A stretch of DNA of 42,451 nucleotides from Acidimicrobiia bacterium (GCA_036396535.1 DASWKR010000042.1:1-42451); one strand, 5' to 3'. Counted from the stretch's first letter, positions 7,490 through 24,612 are shown. The notes: generated by a model from the letters alone, not told the origin. Translations and numbers: made by a program.

Positions 7490-8626
7490 TCATGCACCCT
7501 CGAGGTAGCCCTCGAGCTTGCGCGCCCGTGCCGGCTGACGGAGCTTGGCGAGCGCCTTCGTCTCGATCTGGCGGATCCGCTCCCTGGTGACCCTGAAGTG
7601 GGCGCCGACCTCTTCGAGCGTGCGGATCTTCCCGTCCGCCAGCCCGAAGCGCATGATGAGCACCTGGCGTTCCCTCTCGTTGAGGCCCTCGAGCGCCAGC
7701 GAGAGGTACTCCTGGAGGAGGCGGAAGGAGGCGGCCTCCACGGGCACGTCCGCTTCGGTGTCCTCGACGAAGTCGCCGAGGGTCGACTCGTCCTCCTCGC
7801 CGAGCGGTGACTCGAGCGAGAGCGGGTCCTGGGCGATCCTGCGCAGCTCGGACACCCGGTCGGGCTCCATCTCCATCTCCACCGCGATCTCCTCGATCGT
7901 CGGCTCCCGGCCGAGATCCTGCATCAGCGAGCGCTGCGACCGAGCGAGCTTGTTGATCGTCTCGACCATGTGAACCGGCACGCGGATCGTCCTCGCCTGA
8001 TCGGCCAGCGCCCGGGTCACCGCCTGCCGAATCCACCACGTTGCGTAGGTGGAGAACTTGAAGCCCTTGCGATAGTCGAACTTCTCGACCGCCCTGATCA
8101 AGCCGAGGTTGCCCTCCTGGATGAGGTCGAGTAGAGACAATCCCCGGCCGACGTACTTCTTGGCGATCGAGACGACGAGGCGCAGGTTCGATTCGACGAG
8201 GCGTTTGCGGGCCCTGTCCGCCTGGCGGGCGGCGCGCTCGAGTATCGCCCGCTCCCCGGGCGACAGCTCCTCGACGGAATCGAGCTTCTCGTCGGCTCGC
8301 ATCCCCGTCTCCATCTGCATCGCCAGCTCGACCTCCTGCTGCGGCGTGAGCAGCGGGTAGCGGCCGATCTCCTGCAGGTACATACGGACGGGATCGGAGA
8401 CGTGCACGAGCTCATCGTTCGTGAGCGCCGTGGCGGCGAGGGCGTCGTTCGAGTCCTCACGCACCGCGATACCGCCCTCGAGGAGGGCCACGAACACGTC
8501 GTCGAAGGACTCGGGGGGGGCGGTTGCGTCTTCCAGCTCCTGGTGCACCTCGGTGGCGATGAGGAAGCCGCGTTGCTTGCCTCTCTGCATGAGGCGCTCC
8601 AGCACGGCTCGTTCCAGTTCGGTCAC
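7490..8626 (-). CDS. rpoD: Primary RNA polymerase sigma factor (RpoD/SigA)
   Basis: A 378-residue group 1 sigma factor. Region 1.2 is at about 77-108 ([17 protein letters not shown]). Region 2 at 145-215 contains [38 protein letters not shown] and the -10-melting segment [17 protein letters not shown]. Region 3 covers about 220-300, and region 4 at 312-372 carries the -35-binding helix [18 protein letters not shown]. Region 1.1 is short. The GTG start overlaps the dnaG stop by 4 nt (GTGA), the classic macromolecular-synthesis pairing of primase and sigma factor. No anti-sigma gene is nearby. Confidence 0.97.
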
Positions 8627-10377
8627 TCACGCCTCCGCAGGTCTCGTCTTCGGCGCTCCAACGCTATCAACTCGGCGAACTTGTCGGAATGTCCTTCGCC
8701 CTGGCCGGGCCCGCTCCTGTCGATCTCGGTGCGCAAGTGTTCGATTCGGCGTTCGACCGCACCGAGCTTGAGCCTTATCACGACTTCGTCTGCGGTGGCG
8801 GGCGGCATGTCGACGAGCGCCAGACGCCGGAGGAGGCTGACGGCATCCGAGGCGTCGCCTCCGATCACGGCGCCGAGGTCGGGCGGCACCCCCGGGGCGA
8901 GACGCTCGATGGCGGGGGCGATCAGACCGTACGCCTCCCGATGGAGCGCGTCGGTGAACAGGTCGGCGTCGATCTCGTGTCCGGCAAGCCCGTGGTCGTT
9001 GGCGAGGAGGAGGCGAAGCAACTCACGTTCCGCCTTGTGCTCGCCGGTCAGCTGCTCGCCGGTTCCTTGGGTGCGCCTGGCGGTCCGGTGCGGTTGGGTC
9101 GCCCTTGCGAGAGCATCCTCGACGGCGCGCAGCTCCACCCCGGTCCGCCGGGACACGAGGACCGCGTATTCGTGCCTGACGAGCGGGTCGGGATGCGCCG
9201 CGATGACGGGGATCACGGCACGGACCGCTCTGCCGCGCGCCTCGGCCTCGTCGAGATCGAACGACTGCAGCTCCTTCTCGATTCGGAACTGGAGGAGGGG
9301 AATCGACTCGTCGATCGCCTTGAGCAGGATCGCCCGCTCCCCCATGGCGACGATCTCGGCGGGGTCACGACCCTCGGGAAGCAAGGCGACCCGCAGGTCG
9401 AGGTCACCTGGGACCGACTTCTCGAATCCGCGCAGCGCCGCCCCCGCCCCTGCCTCGTCGGCGTCGAATGCGAGGACGACCCGCTCCGTGAAGCGCCTCA
9501 AGAGGTCGAGGTGCTCCTCGCCGAGCGCCGTGCCGCATGTGGCGACCGCCACCGGGAGATCTGCCTGGTGGAAGGCGATCACGTCGGTGTACCCCTCCAC
9601 CACCACCGCCTCGCCCTGGCGCACGATCTCCCCCTTGGCCAGGTTGAGGCCGTAGAGCAGCGAGGACTTGTGATAGATCTGTGTCTCGGAGGTGTTGAGA
9701 TACTTCGGTGGCTCCCCGTCGAGCTGACGAGCGCCGAACCCGACCGGATCACCTCGAGTGTCGTAGATCGGGAACATCACGCGGCTCCGGAACCGGTCGA
9801 CGAGGCGTCCTTGCCTGCTCCTGGACGCCAGGCCCGCCCCGACGAGCGCCGCCTCCGATATCTTCAGCCCGCCGAGGTGCTTGACGAGCCCGTCCCAGGC
9901 ATCGGGCGAGTAGCCCAGCTTGAACTCCGATACGACGGAGGCGTCATAGCCTCGATTGCGCAGGTATGCCCTCGCCGACGCGGCGTCCGATCCGACCTTG
10001 AGACGATCGTGATAGAAGTCGACGGCCGCAGCGACGGCGGCGATCAACTCCTCGCGGTGCCCGCGACGTCGCTCCGCCGCCGGGTCCTCGGTGAGCGTCA
10101 CGCCGGCCCGCCTCGCCAGCAGCTCCAGTGCACCCACGAAGTCGAGACCGTGGGTCTCCTGGACCCACTGGAACACGTCGCCGCCCTTGCCGCACCCGAA
10201 ACAGTGGTAGAGCCCGCGAGCCGGATCGATCGACAGCGACGGTGTCTTCTCCTGGTGAAACGGGCAGACGGCCATGATCGAGCGGCCGCTCCGCTTGACC
10301 TTCGTCACCTCAGCGGCGAGCTCGGCGAGGTCTGTGCGCTCCCGCACCCTGTCGATGTCTTCGCGGGAATAGGCCAC
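8623..10377 (-). CDS. dnaG: DNA primase
   Basis: A 584-residue primase that lays RNA primers at the replication fork. The N-terminal zinc ribbon shows [14 protein letters not shown] and [11 protein letters not shown] (CHC2 ligands). The TOPRIM core follows, with [15 protein letters not shown] and the acidic [13 protein letters not shown]. The C-terminal part is the helicase-interaction region. I set the start at the GTG at 10377, giving [17 protein letters not shown], which matches the normal family start; the open frame continues some 330 nt upstream but that stretch is low-quality coding and overlaps the neighbouring gene. The ribosome-binding site is weak. It is followed by rpoD with a 4-nt overlap. 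Confidence 0.95.
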
Positions 10378-10445
10378 CAGGCGAGTGTACCGGTGACACA
10401 GGATCCACCCGGGTGCCCCGCCCAGCCACCCCCGATGCGGCTCGG

Positions 10446-11504
10446 CTAGCGGAGGGCGATGGTGCCGTCGGCGAGGACGATGGACCGCATCAGCGAGTCG
10501 ATGCGGGCGATAGTTCCCTCGATGACCACGGGGTCGCCTCGCTCGATGCCGCTGCCGGTGTCGGAAGGCAGACCGACGGTGGCGTCGACGAGTGAGCTGC
10601 CGGCCGACTCGCCCGTGACCTGTCGGACGGTCACCGTTGCCTTGGTGCCCGGTATCGACCCGAGGTCGAGATCGGACGTGTACGCCCTGAGCGAGCGAAG
10701 CGACCCTTCCCACCGGACCCGGGAGCCGATGAGATCCTCCAGCTCGCGGTCCACGGCGAAGCTCAGCGCATTCCCTGAGAACATCGTTGTCACGATCCTG
10801 TCGAGGACGGCGGTGTCGAGAGTCGGCGGCGTCGGGATAGCGGCTTCGGGAGCCTGGTCGGGAGCCCGGCCGGCTACCGGCTCATCGACGGCAGCCGGCG
10901 GCCGGGGTTCGCCGAGGATGTCGAGCCTGGCGGGCGGCGGGGTCGGTTGCTCGACGACGGCGGGCATGACTCGCAGGGCGCTCGCCGACGCGATGAGGTC
11001 GCGGCCCTTCTGCACGAGCTGGTCGACCGAGTCCGTTAGCTGCGACTCGTGGACCATGGCGATGCTCGTCACCTCGATGGGCCGGTACGCCCGGAAGAGA
11101 TCGCGAAGCAGGTTCGCCTTGTCGTCGCTGAGCCAGCGGCGAAGCGCCTCCTCGTCGTCCGTTCTCGTCACGATGAGCGAGTCGAGGCCCTCCCACCCGG
11201 TCGACACCACCGGCAGGCGGCGCGGCTCGAAGGCCGGCTCGTGGTCTCGGCCGAGCATCTGCAGGCCGAACTCGAACGCCGGATAGTGGATGCGGTACCG
11301 AGTGACGAACCGATCGCCGGCCACGACCCTACCGATCGCCACCGCAAGCTCGCCCCGCGAGCCGAAGAACGCATCACCACCGCCCAGGGAATGATCGACC
11401 GAAACGCCGAGGCTGTCGGCGATCTCCTCCCAGTCGGTGCTGCCGAACTGGGCGCTCCTCGTCCTGGCCGAGAAGAAGTCTCCGAAGCGCAACCGACCGT
11501 TCAT
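10446..11504 (-). CDS. Conserved-looking protein of unknown function upstream of dnaG
   Basis: A 352-residue soluble protein starting at an ATG. I do not recognise it. It appears to have two parts: an N-terminal alpha/beta region to about residue 190 (including YRIHYPAFEFGLQMLG and the acidic TRTDDEEALRRWLSDD), a Pro/Ala-rich linker (about 190-232), and a C-terminal all-beta region ending in VVIEGTIARIDSLMRSI, with strand spacing that resembles an OB-like fold. There is no signal peptide or membrane helix. It lies 68 nt upstream of dnaG on the same strand and may be co-transcribed with it; a DNA-related role would be speculation. Confidence 0.65.
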   Translation of the reverse strand: MNGRLRFGDFFSARTRSAQFGSTDWEEIADSLGVSVDHSLGGGDAFFGSRGELAVAIGRVVAGDRFVTRYRIHYPAFEFGLQMLGRDHEPAFEPRRLPVVSTGWEGLDSLIVTRTDDEEALRRWLSDDKANLLRDLFRAYRPIEVTSIAMVHESQLTDSVDQLVQKGRDLIASASALRVMPAVVEQPTPPPARLDILGEPRPPAAVDEPVAGRAPDQAPEAAIPTPPTLDTAVLDRIVTTMFSGNALSFAVDRELEDLIGSRVRWEGSLRSLRAYTSDLDLGSIPGTKATVTVRQVTGESAGSSLVDATVGLPSDTGSGIERGDPVVIEGTIARIDSLMRSIVLADGTIALR

Positions 11505-16429: not shown

Positions 16430-19400
16430 CTAGCCGCCGACGTCGCACGACCTCACCGTGATCACGATGGTCCCGGAACGACTCCGGTTGCCGGCTCCAT
16501 CCGTCGCCACGATGGTCGCTTCGAGCGTCGTCCGTTCCCCCTCGGGAACCAGGCCCGCCTCGAAGGTGAACGAGCCGGTGGCATACGGATCGTCGAACGC
16601 CATGGCGGTGACGCCCGTCACCCGGCTGCCATTGAAGACCGCCGACCAGTCGAGCACGACGGAGTCGATCCCCGACGGGTCGCTGACCCTCACGCCGATG
16701 CGGGCCCTGTTCGGGCCCAGCGGGCACGCCTGACCAGGGCCGAGCGCCTCGTACACGACGTAGTTGTCGACGAGAGGTCTGCTGAGCCGGGGCCCCTCGA
16801 CGTCGCGGGCAGTCACGGTGAGTTGAGCGATTGTCGAGTTGCCGGTCGTGTCCGCGGCTCTGATCCGCACCGTGAGCGGGAAGAACCGCCCGAGGCCTCG
16901 CCTCGCCAGCGTGACCTGCCCGGACGCCGCGTCGATCTTCAAGACCTCGTTGGGATCGTCGAGGATCGCATAGGAAACCGAATCCCCCTCGTCCTCGTCG
17001 CGGGCGACCACCGTTCCGACCACCGTGTTGGGAGCGGCCCCCGCCTCGATCGAGAAGGCGTGGTCGTCGAGGAGGGGCGGCTCCGGCACGTCACCGACCG
17101 CCACCGCCACGACGAATCCGGCATGCGCCCCACTGGGGTCGACGACGTTTCCGCGCAGCTCGAGCGCCGCCGACTCCTCGTGGTTGAGGGTTCTCGAGGC
17201 AGTGACGACGCCATCGTCATCGACGGCCAACCAGTCCGTGTCACCGTCGGTCACCACGAAGGTGAGCTCGTCGCCGTCGATGTCGCTCGCCGACAGGGAC
17301 CCGACGGTGGACCCGCTCCCGAGCCCCTCGTCGACGGAGACCCGCAAGTCGCTCGCGGTGGGCGCGTCGTTCACCGGAGCGAGATCGATCGCCATCGTCC
17401 CCGAGGCGATGGCAACGCCGTCCGTGACGTCGTACACGAAGGAGTCGGCGCCGTTGTGATTCGGCGGCGGCCGATAGATGACAGATCCCGCCGCCGAGAT
17501 AGTCGCGGTTCCACCCTGTTCAGTGATGAGCTCACCCGACGTGGCCATGCTCACGGGATCGCCCTCGATGTCGTACCAGCCGGAGAGCGCGTCGAACGAG
17601 ATGTCGACGTCCTCGCGGCCGGACACTTCGAGTGCCCCGTGGCGCGGCGCGTCGTTGCGCCCCTCGACCGTCACGCTCACCGGCACGGTCAGGGTCGCCT
17701 CGCCATCCGAGACCTGGTACGTGAACGAGTCGCTGCCGAAGAAATCGTCGGCGGGCACGTATGCCGTCACGCCTGAGGCGACCACTCCTCCCTGGGCGGT
17801 GAAGCGGTCGAACCCGGTGATCTCTATGGGATCGCCCTCGGGATCGACGATCCCGGCGAGCGGATCGATGCGGAGGACCGAGTCCTCGGCAACCGAGAAC
17901 GATGGTGCGTCGACCAGTCGCGGTGCGTCGTTCACCGGTGTGACGGAGATCCGCACGGTTGCCGATGCCGTGTCACCCTCCGGGCGCGTCACGGTGTAGG
18001 TGAGAGTGTCCTGTCCGTTGAAGTCGGGTGCCGGACGGTATGTGATGGCGGACTCGCCGGCGGTGGCGGTCCCACTGCGAGGAGCGTCCCCGATCGCCAT
18101 CGAGATGCCCGGCACACCGGCGCCGCCATCGTTGGCCAGGACATCGATGACGGCCGTGGTGTCCTCGGCAACGACCACCACGTCGTCGCGGGTGACGAGC
18201 GGTGGCAGCGGCGACCGGGGCTCGTCGGTGGCGGGCGGATCGACGGCAGGGTCGCCTGAGCCGACGGTGGTGTCGGTCGTCTCCCCGTCGTCTCCCACGA
18301 CCGGTCCGGTGCCGCCTGCGAGAACGGTCGTGTCGGAGCTCGGGTCGGCGACGCGATCGATGGCGGCCGGACCGGCCGGAACGTCGTCCGACGTGATCAC
18401 GGCGATGCCGCCTGCTGCGGCGGCCACGAGGAGCAGCACCCCGGCAGCGATCCCGGCGATGCTCTGCGCCCCGGCGCCGACCACCGCGGTCGTGGCGACG
18501 GCCGCCGCCGCGGCGGTCGTCGCGGTCCCGGCCGTCGCCGCGGTCGTCGCGGTACCCGCCGCCGCGCCTGTCGCCCCGGCGCCGGCTGCCGTGGCCCCCC
18601 CTGCACCCGACGCTCCATTGGTGCCGATCGTGGCGGCGGCGCTTGCTGCGGCGCCCGCTGCCGCAGTGGCCGCGGCGGAGCCCCAGATCGATTCCTGAAG
18701 CCCGATGGGAACGGGCACCGCCGCCAATGCAGCGAACAGCTTCAGGGGCACGAACAGCGTCCTGCGGTTCTCGTGGCAGACGCCGCACTCCCTGGCGTGC
18801 TTGTCGACGGACCTGCGCAACTCTGGAGTCAGCTCCGGTCCCCCGTGGGCGTTCACGATGGCGGCCAGCCCCTCGCAGTCGCGACGACCCTTCCGCACGA
18901 GCAGGTACGTCGCCATGGTGTCCGACACCGACTTCTTCATGCGGCTCACCATCGTGTAGGCGTTGCCCTTGGAGACACCGAGCACCTCGGCTATCTCGGC
19001 GCTGTCGAGACCGTGCCTGACGTGGAGGTCCATCACCGTGTACGTGCGCTCGTCGAGCCCGGCCGCCGCCTCCCAGACGATCTCGGCCGCCTCACGAACC
19101 TCGACCTGGTGCACCGGATCGTCGGTGAGGTCGACGGTGATAATGGCGAGCGATATCCGTTCCTCGACCTCGACATCCGTGAACCCGCCGACGGCCACCG
19201 CCCTCTTGGAGCGCTTGATGCGATTGAGGGCGTTGCGGTGAGCGATGGTGAAGAGCCAGCTCTTGAAAGAAGCGGGGTTCTTGAGGTGGCCGAGGCGCTC
19301 GAACGCCTTCACGAAGGTGTCCTGGGCGACGTCGGCGGCTTCGTCGCGATCGCGGAGCAGCCTCGTGAGGAAGTCGAAGATCTCCGCGAAGTAGCGCTCG

Positions 19401-19483
19401 TAGAGGATCGCGAACGCATCGACACCGCCCCGGCGGGCGAGCACGACGAGGTCGGCGTCCTCGGTCGGTAGCGCAGTTGTCAT
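16430..19483 (-). CDS. ECF sigma factor fused to zinc anti-sigma motif, membrane helix and cadherin-like ectodomain
   Basis: A single 1017-residue chain. Residues ~10-95 are sigma region 2 (DEAADVAQDTFVKAFERL, SWLFTIAHRNALNRIKR) and ~135-192 sigma region 4 (LDSAEIAEVLGVSKGNAYT). A zinc anti-sigma motif follows: Cys203, His229, Cys233 and Cys236, with the C-x25-Hx3Cx2C spacing of RsrA-type ZAS domains. A low-complexity Ala/Gly/Thr stretch (~263-339) leads to one membrane helix (~342-363). Outside lie about five cadherin-like/VCBS-type beta domains with NDAP boundaries near 519, 611 and 706, DxDGD near 737, and a terminal domain with two cysteines (920, 1013). The ATG has GGAGAAGG upstream. No separate anti-sigma gene is adjacent. 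Ligand and target promoters are unknown. Confidence 0.93.
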   Translation of the reverse strand: MTTALPTEDADLVVLARRGGVDAFAILYERYFAEIFDFLTRLLRDRDEAADVAQDTFVKAFERLGHLKNPASFKSWLFTIAHRNALNRIKRSKRAVAVGGFTDVEVEERISLAIITVDLTDDPVHQVEVREAAEIVWEAAAGLDERTYTVMDLHVRHGLDSAEIAEVLGVSKGNAYTMVSRMKKSVSDTMATYLLVRKGRRDCEGLAAIVNAHGGPELTPELRRSVDKHARECGVCHENRRTLFVPLKLFAALAAVPVPIGLQESIWGSAAATAAAGAAASAAATIGTNGASGAGGATAAGAGATGAAAGTATTAATAGTATTAAAAAVATTAVVGAGAQSIAGIAAGVLLLVAAAAGGIAVITSDDVPAGPAAIDRVADPSSDTTVLAGGTGPVVGDDGETTDTTVGSGDPAVDPPATDEPRSPLPPLVTRDDVVVVAEDTTAVIDVLANDGGAGVPGISMAIGDAPRSGTATAGESAITYRPAPDFNGQDTLTYTVTRPEGDTASATVRISVTPVNDAPRLVDAPSFSVAEDSVLRIDPLAGIVDPEGDPIEITGFDRFTAQGGVVASGVTAYVPADDFFGSDSFTYQVSDGEATLTVPVSVTVEGRNDAPRHGALEVSGREDVDISFDALSGWYDIEGDPVSMATSGELITEQGGTATISAAGSVIYRPPPNHNGADSFVYDVTDGVAIASGTMAIDLAPVNDAPTASDLRVSVDEGLGSGSTVGSLSASDIDGDELTFVVTDGDTDWLAVDDDGVVTASRTLNHEESAALELRGNVVDPSGAHAGFVVAVAVGDVPEPPLLDDHAFSIEAGAAPNTVVGTVVARDEDEGDSVSYAILDDPNEVLKIDAASGQVTLARRGLGRFFPLTVRIRAADTTGNSTIAQLTVTARDVEGPRLSRPLVDNYVVYEALGPGQACPLGPNRARIGVRVSDPSGIDSVVLDWSAVFNGSRVTGVTAMAFDDPYATGSFTFEAGLVPEGERTTLEATIVATDGAGNRSRSGTIVITVRSCDVGG

Positions 19484-19559
19484 GCCTTCTCCGAGCCCCC
19501 CGTGGTGACCAACGGTAGCCGTACTTTGCGTCAGCGTGGCAGGGGAGCGGAGAGACCAA

Positions 19560-19589
19560 GAGGGACCGCTCCCGATGGAACGGTCCCTC
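19560..19589. terminator. 9-bp inverted repeat in the leader region of the sigma-fusion gene
   Basis: GAGGGACCG (19560-19568) and CGGTCCCTC (19581-19589) are perfect arms around a 12-nt loop, about 77 bp upstream of the sigma-fusion ATG. No U-run. It could be a leader hairpin or operator. The rest of the 308-bp gap 19484-19791 holds an AT-richer stretch (about 19670-19735), likely promoter region, and the hairpin listed next; no gene is seen. Confidence 0.4.
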
Positions 19590-19749
19590 GATCGATCATG
19601 CCGCCCCCACCAGGCTGTTCGGCACGATCACGGCCTTCCTACTCCCGAGCGGCCCGCCGTTGCAAGACCTTCGAGTATGAGACACCCGAATGGACTAGTT
19701 CTTACACGAAACGGCTGAGAAAAGGCCGATATGAGCCGACGGACCCAGA

Positions 19750-21842: not shown

Positions 21843-22306
21843 GAGGGCTTCACCCGGCCGGCCGAGGCGAGCAGCTCTCGCTCCCGACCCTCCATCAACT
21901 CCGCCTCGGCGTCATCGACGTGGTCGTAGCCCAGTAAGTGGAGGAGCCCGTGGACCACCATCAGCGCCATCTCGTCCTCGAAGCGTACCGCGCCTGCCGC
22001 GGCGTTGGCACGAACGACTGCCGGGCAGACGAGCACGTCACCGAGCACCGGAGGCGGCCCCCCAGGCACCCGCTGCGGCGGCACCCCCGGCGAGAGGTCC
22101 TCGATCGGGAACGAGAGAACATCCGTGGCTCCCAGCTTCCCGAGGTGCCGCTCATTGTGTTCCGACATCGCCTGCTCGTCGACCATCGTGAGCGAGACCT
22201 CCGTGCCTTCGGGGCACAGCTCCGCCGCCAGGACACGCTCAGCCAGCTCCACGAGTTGTCCGGGTTCGAGAGGGTCGTCTTGCTCGTCCGCGAACTGGAC
22301 GCTCAT
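21839..22306 (-). CDS. ybeY: Endoribonuclease YbeY
   Basis: A 155-residue metal-dependent RNase for 16S rRNA 3'-end maturation and ribosome quality control. The zinc motif HGLLHLLGYDH (119-129) with three histidines is complete, and the LGATDVLSFPIED segment is typical. The start ATG overlaps the upstream stop by 4 nt. Neighbouring phoH and era fit the usual genomic cluster. Confidence 0.96.
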   Translation of the reverse strand: MSVQFADEQDDPLEPGQLVELAERVLAAELCPEGTEVSLTMVDEQAMSEHNERHLGKLGATDVLSFPIEDLSPGVPPQRVPGGPPPVLGDVLVCPAVVRANAAAGAVRFEDEMALMVVHGLLHLLGYDHVDDAEAELMEGRERELLASAGRVKPS

Positions 22307-24612
22307 CGATCCTCCGCCCGCGGCCCCGGGAAGCCGGGGTACGGGATGCGGGTGTGGTAGTAGCCGATGAGCGCCTGGACGATGGCGTGCTTGACGCGAG
22401 TCAGGTCTCCGAACGTGAGGTCCGACTGGTCGAGCTGGCCGTCCTCGAGCTTCTCGCCGACGACGGAGTCGACGAGCTTCCTGAGGCTGTCGGCGGTCGG
22501 GTCCTCCTGCTGGGCGAGTGCCCGGGCGGCGCCCTCGACTGCATCGGAGATCATGAGGATCGCCATCTCCTTGCGCCGCGGCTTGTCTCCCGCGTGGCGG
22601 AAGAGCCCCGGGTCGACGCTGGGATCGGCGTCCAATGCCTGGTGATAGAAGTAGCGCATCAGCCCGGTCCCGTGGTGCATCCGGATGCCGTCTGCGACCT
22701 CGTCCGGGATGCGGTACTGGCGGGCGAGCTTGAGGCCGTTCGTCACGTGGTCGCGGATGATGGTCGCAGACTCCTCAGGCGCCAGCTCGTCATGCGGATT
22801 GGACACGCCGAACTGGTTCTCGATGAAATACTGAGGCTGCTCGGTCTTGCCGAGGTCGTGGTAGTAGGCCGAGGCCTGCGCCAGCAAGGCGTTCGCCCCG
22901 ATCGCCCTGGCCGCCTTGCCGGCAAGCGTCCCCACGAGGATGGAGTGGTTGAACGTCCCGGGGGCGTGCTCCTCGAGCAGCCGCAGGGCGGGATGGTTCC
23001 TGTCGGTCAGGTCGAGGAGCGTGATCGTCGTCGTCATCTGGAACAGGTTCTCGAGGAACGAGAGCAATCCCTGCGCGGCCAGGCCGGCGATGATGCCGCC
23101 GATCACGGCGAACATGGCAGCGGTGACGACCGACTCCCACCCCAGGTACATCCAGGCAACGGCCCCGGCGAGCGGGGCGAGCACGAGTGCCGACAAGGTG
23201 ACTGCCAGCCTCAGCTCACGGCGGCTCGACACCGCAGAGACGAAGGCGACGGGGGCGACGGTGGCAGCTGCGGCGTAGACCGTCAGGCCGATGTCTGTCG
23301 TCGAGATGGCGGTGAACGTGGCGACGGGCACCGCCATCAGGACCGCGGTCCTCGGGTCGTAGAGGATGGCGGCGATGTAGCCGAACATCACCGCGGGGAG
23401 CACGAACGCCAACTCCGGATTCGACTCGCCGACGATCAGGTCCGGGATTCGACTTGCGATGGCGGCCAGGATCAGCAGCACGCCGAGTAGCGCGAAGTGC
23501 TTCGGCTGTGACCACAAGCCCGGAGCGATGCGCCACAGGAAGAAGGCCGCCAGCAGCACCGCAATGGCGCCGAGCGCAGAAGCGGCAGATGACGACGTGC
23601 CCTCGCCGGGATCGACGAGGCCGAGCAACTCGATCGCTTCGATCTGCACGGCCGTGAGCTGCTCGCCGGCCCTGACGATCGGGGTGCCGTCGAAGAACGT
23701 GACCTGCACGTCCAACACCGCGTCGGCGGCCGCCTGCTTGGTCTCGTCCGTTGCCTGCTCGTCCAGAACCCTGTTCGGGAGGAGCGAGTCGGCGGCGACG
23801 TCGGCGATGGCCTGCTCGACGTCGGACAAGGTGAACTGCACGCCCAGGTACTCGAAGCCCTCGTAGCCCGGTCCTGGGAAGAACGGCGGGGGGCTTGCCG
23901 TCAGCTGGTTGCGCCGCCCCTCGAGCTCGTTGGCCGAGAACGCCTCGCGAAGCTGCGTGTCCACCGTGTTGACGATCTGCTGCTCGACGAGCGGGTAGAT
24001 GGCGTCCTCTCCCTCCTCGAGCGCGGCCAGGTCGGCGTTCAGCTGACCGAGAAGCACACGGGTTGCACCCTCGTTGCGTGACGGGTGCTGGCTCTCAACG
24101 AGGTCGACCTGGTCCTCAGGAGGCAGGGTGGTCGTCGACGTCGTCGTCGGCGGCTCGGTCGTGGTCGTCGCCTCGGTCGTGGTCGTCGTGGTGTCCTGCT
24201 CCTCCTCAGGAGGGGCGGTCGTGGTCGTGGTCGTGGTCGTCGTCGTGGTCGTCGTCGTGGTCGTCGTCAAGGACACCTCGGCGTCGCCTCCGAGTGGGGC
24301 CGACCTGAGGGCGGCGAAGTAGCGCGCCAGCGAGGCCTCCACGGTCTGTTGAACGGAGGGGTCCACGCGGAACACCGAGGGCTCGTTGAGCCGCGCCAAC
24401 TCGCGCTGTTGCTCGGTCGCACCCTCGTCGACGACCTGGATCGTCGAAGGTGCGAGGAAGTCGACGGGCGACGGCTCGCCGAGCACGAGGCTGATCGCAG
24501 GAGACGGCTCCGGCCTGCCGATCGTCAGCGACAGCGCCACGAACAGGACGGTCACGATGATCACGCCGATGTTGAGCACGACGTTGCGCTTGCTCGTGCG
24601 CTCGGAGGTCAC
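22303..24612 (-). CDS. 7TM-HD phosphohydrolase (PgpH/YqfF-like, probable c-di-AMP phosphodiesterase)
   Basis: A 769-residue membrane enzyme. One N-terminal helix (about 9-29) is followed by a long outside domain (about 30-345), a block of membrane helices (about 350-560) and a cytoplasmic HD domain with ASAYYHDLGKTEQPQYF, where HD is catalytic, IIRDHVTNG and IRMHHGTG. This is the 7TMR-HDED plus HDIG layout of PgpH, which cleaves c-di-AMP; activity here is by homology. The outside domain carries an unusual run of 17 threonines (residues 116-132) followed by further Thr-rich stretches split by PPEEEQD and EPP. The GTG start overlaps the phoH stop by 4 nt. Confidence 0.92.
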   Translation of the reverse strand: MTSERTSKRNVVLNIGVIIVTVLFVALSLTIGRPEPSPAISLVLGEPSPVDFLAPSTIQVVDEGATEQQRELARLNEPSVFRVDPSVQQTVEASLARYFAALRSAPLGGDAEVSLTTTTTTTTTTTTTTTTTAPPEEEQDTTTTTTEATTTTEPPTTTSTTTLPPEDQVDLVESQHPSRNEGATRVLLGQLNADLAALEEGEDAIYPLVEQQIVNTVDTQLREAFSANELEGRRNQLTASPPPFFPGPGYEGFEYLGVQFTLSDVEQAIADVAADSLLPNRVLDEQATDETKQAAADAVLDVQVTFFDGTPIVRAGEQLTAVQIEAIELLGLVDPGEGTSSSAASALGAIAVLLAAFFLWRIAPGLWSQPKHFALLGVLLILAAIASRIPDLIVGESNPELAFVLPAVMFGYIAAILYDPRTAVLMAVPVATFTAISTTDIGLTVYAAAATVAPVAFVSAVSSRRELRLAVTLSALVLAPLAGAVAWMYLGWESVVTAAMFAVIGGIIAGLAAQGLLSFLENLFQMTTTITLLDLTDRNHPALRLLEEHAPGTFNHSILVGTLAGKAARAIGANALLAQASAYYHDLGKTEQPQYFIENQFGVSNPHDELAPEESATIIRDHVTNGLKLARQYRIPDEVADGIRMHHGTGLMRYFYHQALDADPSVDPGLFRHAGDKPRRKEMAILMISDAVEGAARALAQQEDPTADSLRKLVDSVVGEKLEDGQLDQSDLTFGDLTRVKHAIVQALIGYYHTRIPYPGFPGPRAEDR
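24217..24267. repeat. Simple-sequence repeat encoding 17 threonines
   Basis: Fifty-one bases of ACG/ACC codons on the minus strand inside the PgpH-like gene. Every unit is three bases, so slippage would change linker length without breaking the frame. Confidence 0.85.

Follow-up and report, generated by a model that had tools for sequence, protein, structure and literature searches.

The window studied here, a stretch of 42,451 nucleotides from the 3.13-Mb draft genome of an Acidimicrobiia bacterium, contains on its minus strand (16430..19483) an open reading frame (ORF) that starts with ATG, is preceded by the ribosome-binding site GGAGAAGGCATG, and encodes a protein of 1017 aa. As judged from the ORF itself, from Pfam and NCBIfam matches, and from the full-length orthologues at L039, L040, L041, and L163, this protein is composed, in this order, of an ECF sigma factor, a zinc anti-sigma-like segment, a transmembrane helix, a cadherin array, and a terminal Ig-like domain. 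Elsewhere in the window, a primary-type sigma factor (regions 1.1 to 4) adjoining a DnaG primase (7490-8626 and 8623-10713) represents ordinary core genes, and a PgpH-type HD membrane protein (22303-24612) has, close to its N-terminus, an extended run of Thr (TTTTTTTT...) similar to the stalks rich in Thr found here in many surface proteins.

Domain organization

Sigma region 2 (residues 27-94; 19202..19405, this and all following domains on the minus strand; Pfam PF04542 Sigma70_r2, E 2.3e-13) and sigma region 4 (residues 135-184; 18932..19081; PF08281 Sigma70_r4_2, 7.9e-7), both already recognized in the initial annotation, are confirmed by Pfam and NCBIfam, whereas region 3 is absent. The NCBIfam model sigma70-ECF scores 75 bits for the protein (cut-off 42.9). 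The host genome contains 27 Sigma70_r2 matches, and the family described here is present in one copy at E <= 1e-25.

The anti-sigma-like segment (see below) is connected to the membrane by a linker rich in Ala, Gly, and Thr (residues 268-342; 18458..18682), followed by a single transmembrane helix (residues 345-363; 18395..18451; mean hydropathy 2.57 over 19 residues). The one membrane helix noted initially is thus found again, and family members possess a helix at the equivalent place. The sigma part would lie in the cytoplasm and the C-terminal part outside.

Residues 426-893 (16805..18208) form a cadherin/tandem-95 array of about five beta domains, matched by tandem-95, Big_9, Cadherin_5, and Cadherin models (NF012211, 2.9e-46, 155.4 bits with a cut-off of 90; PF17963, 4.1e-44, 149.8 bits with a cut-off of 23.6; PF17892, 5.7e-32; PF00028, 6.9e-12, 46.1 bits with a cut-off of 28.8), with the cadherin domain ending near residue 891. 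These are the roughly five cadherin-like domains of the initial annotation, which missed, however, a sixth and distinct one, the terminal Ig-like domain (residues 895-1017; 16433..16801) bracketed by C920 and C1013. These two residues, together with C203, C233, and C236 of the zinc motif, are the five cysteines of the whole protein.

Integrity of the fused gene

A frameshift or misassembly between the sigma part and the ectodomain, a possibility raised by the initial annotation, was looked for in relatives. A tblastn search over 60 related genomes recovered the full-length architecture, with single ORFs of 978-1076 aa and identical layout in four more genomes (G027, G036, G008, and G361). Wherever the contig is long enough, the orthologues lie between phoH-pgpH-ybeY-corC-era on one side and PCD-recO-uppS on the other. 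In every segment, the linker, the cadherin array, and the junctions among them, third codon positions differ more often than first and second ones, as expected of one translated frame; in the terminal segment, the most diverged one, the excess is small for some orthologue pairs.

It would be conceivable that a sigma gene and a neighbouring surface-protein gene were joined by a frameshift or an assembly error, or that a decayed sigma domain is attached to an adhesin, and the contigs of several relatives (G011, G029, G010, and G001) do in fact stop within this GC-rich gene. Nevertheless, we regard this explanation as extremely improbable: full-length single ORFs occupy the same locus in independent genomes, complete members without the fusion were not found, the promoter is conserved as well, and the sigma segment, far from being decayed, is the best conserved part of the protein, with change mostly at third positions. 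Fusion by frameshift or assembly error was therefore rejected on account of the intact ORFs, the kept locus, and the dominance of third-position change.

Zinc anti-sigma-like segment and predicted structure

Cys203, His229, Cys233, and Cys236 sit where the initial annotation had placed them, within predicted helices (residues 203-242; 18758..18877). Their spacing, C-x25-H-x3-C-x2-C, i.e., an H-x3-C-x2-C motif plus an upstream ligand in a segment predicted to be helical, is the class I ASDI/ZAS pattern, and the four residues, which presumably bind zinc, are invariant in 35 of 35 aligned homologues from Acidimicrobiia, other Actinomycetota, and Chloroflexota. Since the Pfam model zf-HC2 reaches 14.8 bits on this segment, below its gathering score of 22.2, the segment is called "anti-sigma-like" throughout.

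In an AlphaFold model of residues 1-268 (35-row alignment, pLDDT 78.3), the helices behind sigma4 comprise residues 204-212, 220-232, and 234-242; the model is weaker in residues 241-268 (pLDDT 62-69) and falls below 50 in part of the linker joining sigma2 and sigma4. The top-ranking structure is SigW from its complex with RsiW, 5wur (Z 14.7, rmsd 3.4 A over 156 residues), and 5uxx is fitted with Z 14.1 and 2.8 A over 163 residues, whereas full-length alignment to RNAP-bound ECF sigma chains results in 27-28 A. Considering this near-full-length fit to anti-sigma-bound ECF factors and the large deviation from the RNAP-bound ones, sigma2 and sigma4 are predicted to be placed as in an inhibited ECF sigma factor, although a compact sigma pair may be what AlphaFold prefers irrespective of any inhibitor. 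In class I anti-sigmas, binding of both sigma2 and sigma4 is conserved (PMC7406223). The SigW/RsiW pairs likewise have a zinc-motif anti-sigma, and SigW gives the best match for the predicted sigma2/sigma4 arrangement; SigW and RsiW are, however, two separate chains, whereas here both functions would reside in a single one.

Distribution and phylogeny

Searches with profile A1 (residues 1-275) yielded relatives in 42 genome records, among them Dehalococcoidia (e.g., Tepidiforma flava), Actinophytocola, and Phytoactinopolyspora, and matches at E <= 1e-25 in 96 of 395 genomes of the class, the majority of which span most of the profile. In a tree of 102 sigma sequences, 77 fall into one group (SH-aLRT 83), of which 75 carry both the zinc motif and the transmembrane helix; the remaining two (L131 and L145) are cut by contig ends. 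Sigma and anti-sigma halves are hence not confined to separate genes in homologues, a possibility that had been raised initially, but are fused in 75/75 members uncut by contig ends. The cadherin-bearing orthologues form one clade (support 99). As the tree is a quick, midpoint-rooted one with long branches, deep relations are tentative.

Concerning the Streptomyces-like genomes, two further fused clades were found, one with mostly CAP outer domains and the other with NPCBM domains (ECF52-like). The former, an ECF - zinc motif - TM clade, is represented by L151:1794-3542 and similar loci (L153-L157, L159, and L160), with mostly a CAP/SCP outer domain; CAP-like sequence is also found at the end of L076, a family member from Chloroflexota. 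Streptomyces-type fused ECFs whose outer domain is a CAP domain (PF00188) or a beta-helix follow the same order of sigma factor, H-x3-C-x2-C, transmembrane helix, and outer domain as the 1017-aa protein, but their outer domain is a different one, and they constitute a clade of their own (support 100).

The ECF52-type proteins, to which the initial annotation had pointed, turned out to be the right comparison, though not close kin. SCO4117 of Streptomyces coelicolor likewise unites an ECF sigma factor, a zinc-finger anti-sigma-like segment, a membrane helix, a low-complexity spacer, and an outer domain in one chain (PMC5826349), and ECF52-like NPCBM proteins of the same plan occur in Streptomyces-like genomes and match the profile. 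The outer domain of ECF52, however, is an NPCBM carbohydrate-binding module, in contrast to the cadherins and the Cys-bracketed Ig-like domain of the 1017-aa protein, for which no Pfam match to an NPCBM module was obtained. In the quick midpoint-rooted tree, the NPCBM-bearing proteins form a distant, separate clade (support 100) on a long branch, such that simple membership in ECF52 was rejected. The family is thus set apart from the NPCBM-bearing type, but it may overlap formally with ECF48 or ECF53 or correspond to an existing ECF group number.

Exchangeable stalk and conserved tip of the ectodomain

The cadherin array is confined to a single clade. Outside of it, many or most ectodomains consist of a short Thr/Pro-rich stretch followed by the same Cys-bracketed Ig-like domain of about 100 residues, and one of them includes a BACON-type domain. 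Some members (e.g., L070, L076, and L166) lack the terminal Ig-like domain and have different ends; the fused member at L166:4342-6726 exhibits an outer part of around 430 residues without Pfam match, which is repeat-like and possibly a propeller.

In an alignment of 21 members (Acidimicrobiia, other Actinomycetota, and Chloroflexota), picked for having the terminal domain, both of its cysteines and one Asp never vary (21/21). AlphaFold predicts residues 895-1017 as a beta sandwich (mean pLDDT 94.9). Searched against Pfam, the terminal domain of the 1017-aa protein gave nothing above cut-off and those of other members scattered weak matches only, and Foldseek against the PDB returned only generic Ig-like matches (TM <= 0.55), such that a ligand cannot be read off. 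The description of the cadherin array as a sensor in the initial annotation is unproven. The array is lineage-specific, while the terminal Ig-like domain is conserved across the family. The array would rather be a lineage-specific spacer or insert, and the tip the better candidate sensor.

Alternatively, the outer part might be mainly an adhesive or cell-wall anchor serving localisation, and the zinc motif might be structural or itself a redox or metal sensor, as in RsrA or CorE. Zinc anti-sigma domains may indeed be redox sensors or purely structural (PMC7406223), and cadherin/tandem-95 repeats recur often among the other large ORFs that these genomes encode. Yet lineages that have swapped the stalk have kept the terminal domain and its cysteine pair, which is more than an anchor needs, and in membrane-bound anti-sigmas a static role of zinc is thought likely (PMC7406223). 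This alternative thus appears quite unlikely to us.

Putative promoter and targets

In the aligned upstream regions of eight orthologues, a shared motif, TGTAAGAA-N14-TGTCTCA, is found, which starts around 220-270 bp before most of the start codons. Its copy in the window, TGTAAGAACTAGTCCATTCGGGTGTCTCA (19678..19706, minus strand), is conserved upstream of orthologues and can be read as a putative autoregulatory ECF-type promoter with TGTAAG as -35 element, a spacer of 16 bp, and TGTC as -10 element. ECF promoters of Bacillus follow the pattern TGAAAC-N16-CGTC, which this reading resembles. In G010, two bases of the motif differ, whereas at L043 (G029:C231:1545-1573, plus strand) the exact motif points away from the sigma gene, which is on the minus strand; an inversion, a divergent transcript, or an assembly error might account for this.

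Among members outside the motif definition, 12 of 43 possess the motif with <=3 mismatches within 400 bp upstream (shuffles: 0.15%), including four from Chloroflexota with 0-2 mismatches; in some members (e.g., L061, L069, and L077), no such motif was present in the upstream stretch scanned. The host genome contains two exact copies, and the reversed control none at that stringency. A version ending in KGTCTNA occurs in 10 of the 395 genomes of the class, nine of which belong to the close clade of 21 genomes having the gene (Fisher 5e-12, uncorrected for kinship and inflated, since motif and gene share their phylogeny); its reversed control occurs in 4 other genomes. With a relaxed exact pattern, 17 matches were obtained in 18 carrier genomes, 11 of them before family ECF genes and 6 elsewhere, the reversed control giving 1. 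Weaker genome sites with 3 mismatches were discarded; the one read in detail, C13:6088, has no clear gene after it.

The leader between promoter and start codon (around 190 nt) contains in the window a strong hairpin at 19555-19600 (GAGGGACCG...CGGTCCCTC, about -31 kcal/mol in a 45-nt fold). Leader hairpins are strong also in L041 and L047 and weaker in the nearest orthologues. A conserved leader structure was rejected (the folding z of -2.07 in the window shrinks to between about -0.1 and -0.8 in the four nearest orthologues), as was an RNA element between era and the gene, for which there was no Rfam match.

The motif is present in only 1-3 copies per genome. A second site (exact in G000 and G361, with one mismatch in G027 and G036) is situated around 55-75 bp before the gene of an 85-aa protein (RRLxALHAxEYDExHYxRVRNALEA...KLRQLADxWSxLG), which in G000 follows directly behind the second exact promoter copy (L178:9408-9656; G000:C84:19407-19655) and has no Pfam or NCBIfam match. 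Where the contig permits, the next gene encodes a membrane-anchored protein with a weak GerMN-like match. The 85-aa protein is found in 5 of 50 family genomes, all of them carriers of the cadherin-bearing ECF (genera g1 and g12); in the fifth, G011, the site before the gene has 3 mismatches. In G313, whose ECF belongs to a non-cadherin branch, two near-identical promoters (L202:649-677 and 8177-8205) precede genes of two related Pro/Glu-rich proteins, which begin with a signal-peptide-like segment, carry a membrane anchor at the C-terminus, and are predicted to be secreted surface proteins, and G001 has two sites before other genes. With so few copies per genome, and few sites beyond the family ECF genes, the regulon looks tiny and would include the sigma gene itself.

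Discussion

The protein is probably a membrane-tethered, self-inhibited, and autoregulated ECF sigma factor, which is freed by a signal from outside, most likely via proteolysis. In the cytoplasm, the sigma2-sigma4 pair would be clamped in cis by the zinc-binding anti-sigma-like helices (residues around 200-250), from which the Ala/Thr-rich linker would lead to the one membrane helix and, outside, to the cadherin stalk, tipped by the conserved Cys-bracketed Ig-like domain. A signal received by the outer part, be it a ligand, contact, or a change of the cell envelope, would most likely trigger regulated intramembrane proteolysis, and after degradation of the anti-sigma remnant the sigma domain would be free. 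It might then transcribe from TGTAAGAA-N14-TGTCTCA its own gene, i.e., with positive feedback, and very few others, among them that of the 85-aa protein, probably together with the following membrane-anchored protein. A homologue of the M50 site-2 protease exists in the host genome, as it does in 14/14 control genomes; a site-1 protease did not turn up. In Pseudomonas putida, IutY is freed by Prc and RseP (PMC8999054), and truncated SCO4117 retains activity (PMC5826349).

The receptor might also act uncleaved, if the signal altered its conformation or oligomeric state, such that the zinc domain loosens its hold and the sigma part works while anchored to the membrane via the flexible linker. 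The linker of around 75 residues could give the necessary reach, a tethered factor might suffice for 1-3 target sites per genome, and ECF41 and CorE do act by conformational change of fused extensions (PMC8999054). For a tethered sigma factor, RNA polymerase and promoter have to be recruited to the membrane, however, and IutY, a membrane-fused ECF that was studied experimentally, requires cleavage (PMC8999054). Activation without cleavage is considered unlikely, and release by proteolysis is preferred.

Membrane-fused ECF/anti-sigma proteins are already known from ECF48, ECF52, and ECF53. For ECF48 and ECF53 of Actinobacteria, a fused zinc anti-sigma and 1-2 membrane helices are predicted and release by proteolysis is expected (PMC8999054); compared by description, their extensions measure up to 400 residues, whereas that of the 1017-aa protein measures around 820. 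Some ECF52/53 proteins bear glycosyl hydrolase or carbohydrate-binding domains (PMC10766802). IutY (ECF243) equally is a sigma factor fused to a membrane anti-sigma and activated through cleavage by Prc and RseP (PMC8999054); it serves, however, cell-surface signalling by the siderophore aerobactin, and a cadherin part is not reported for it. The motif published for SCO4117, CSGYN-17-SRHA, differs from the one described here. Judging by the tools used, the novelty lies in a cadherin outer part that exceeds 600 residues, in the Cys-bracketed tip common to members, in the occurrence in Chloroflexota, and in the predicted promoter and regulon, and literature searches found no paper joining sigma factors and cadherin in these terms.

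A speculative picture, to which we attach little probability, is that of a Notch-like receptor, whose Ig-like tip on a cadherin stalk responds to contact with surfaces, cells, or envelope polymers, and whose own cytoplasmic end is the transcription factor for one to three promoters, its own among them, the stalks being swapped while tip, clamp, and promoter are kept across two phyla.

Signalling from outside to the genes by sigma factors normally takes at least two genes in bacteria. In this family, which is found in Acidimicrobiia and as far afield as Chloroflexota, one chain would combine the sensor with the membrane anchor, the inhibitor, and the transcription factor, and the complete pathway in one gene that the initial annotation proposed remains plausible. 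A candidate sensor is the terminal Ig-like domain, which no Pfam family matches above cut-off. As the predicted promoter is sharp and rare, the whole pathway of signal, cleavage, and targets would be testable with few constructs, and the protein is a candidate part for one-gene synthetic receptors.
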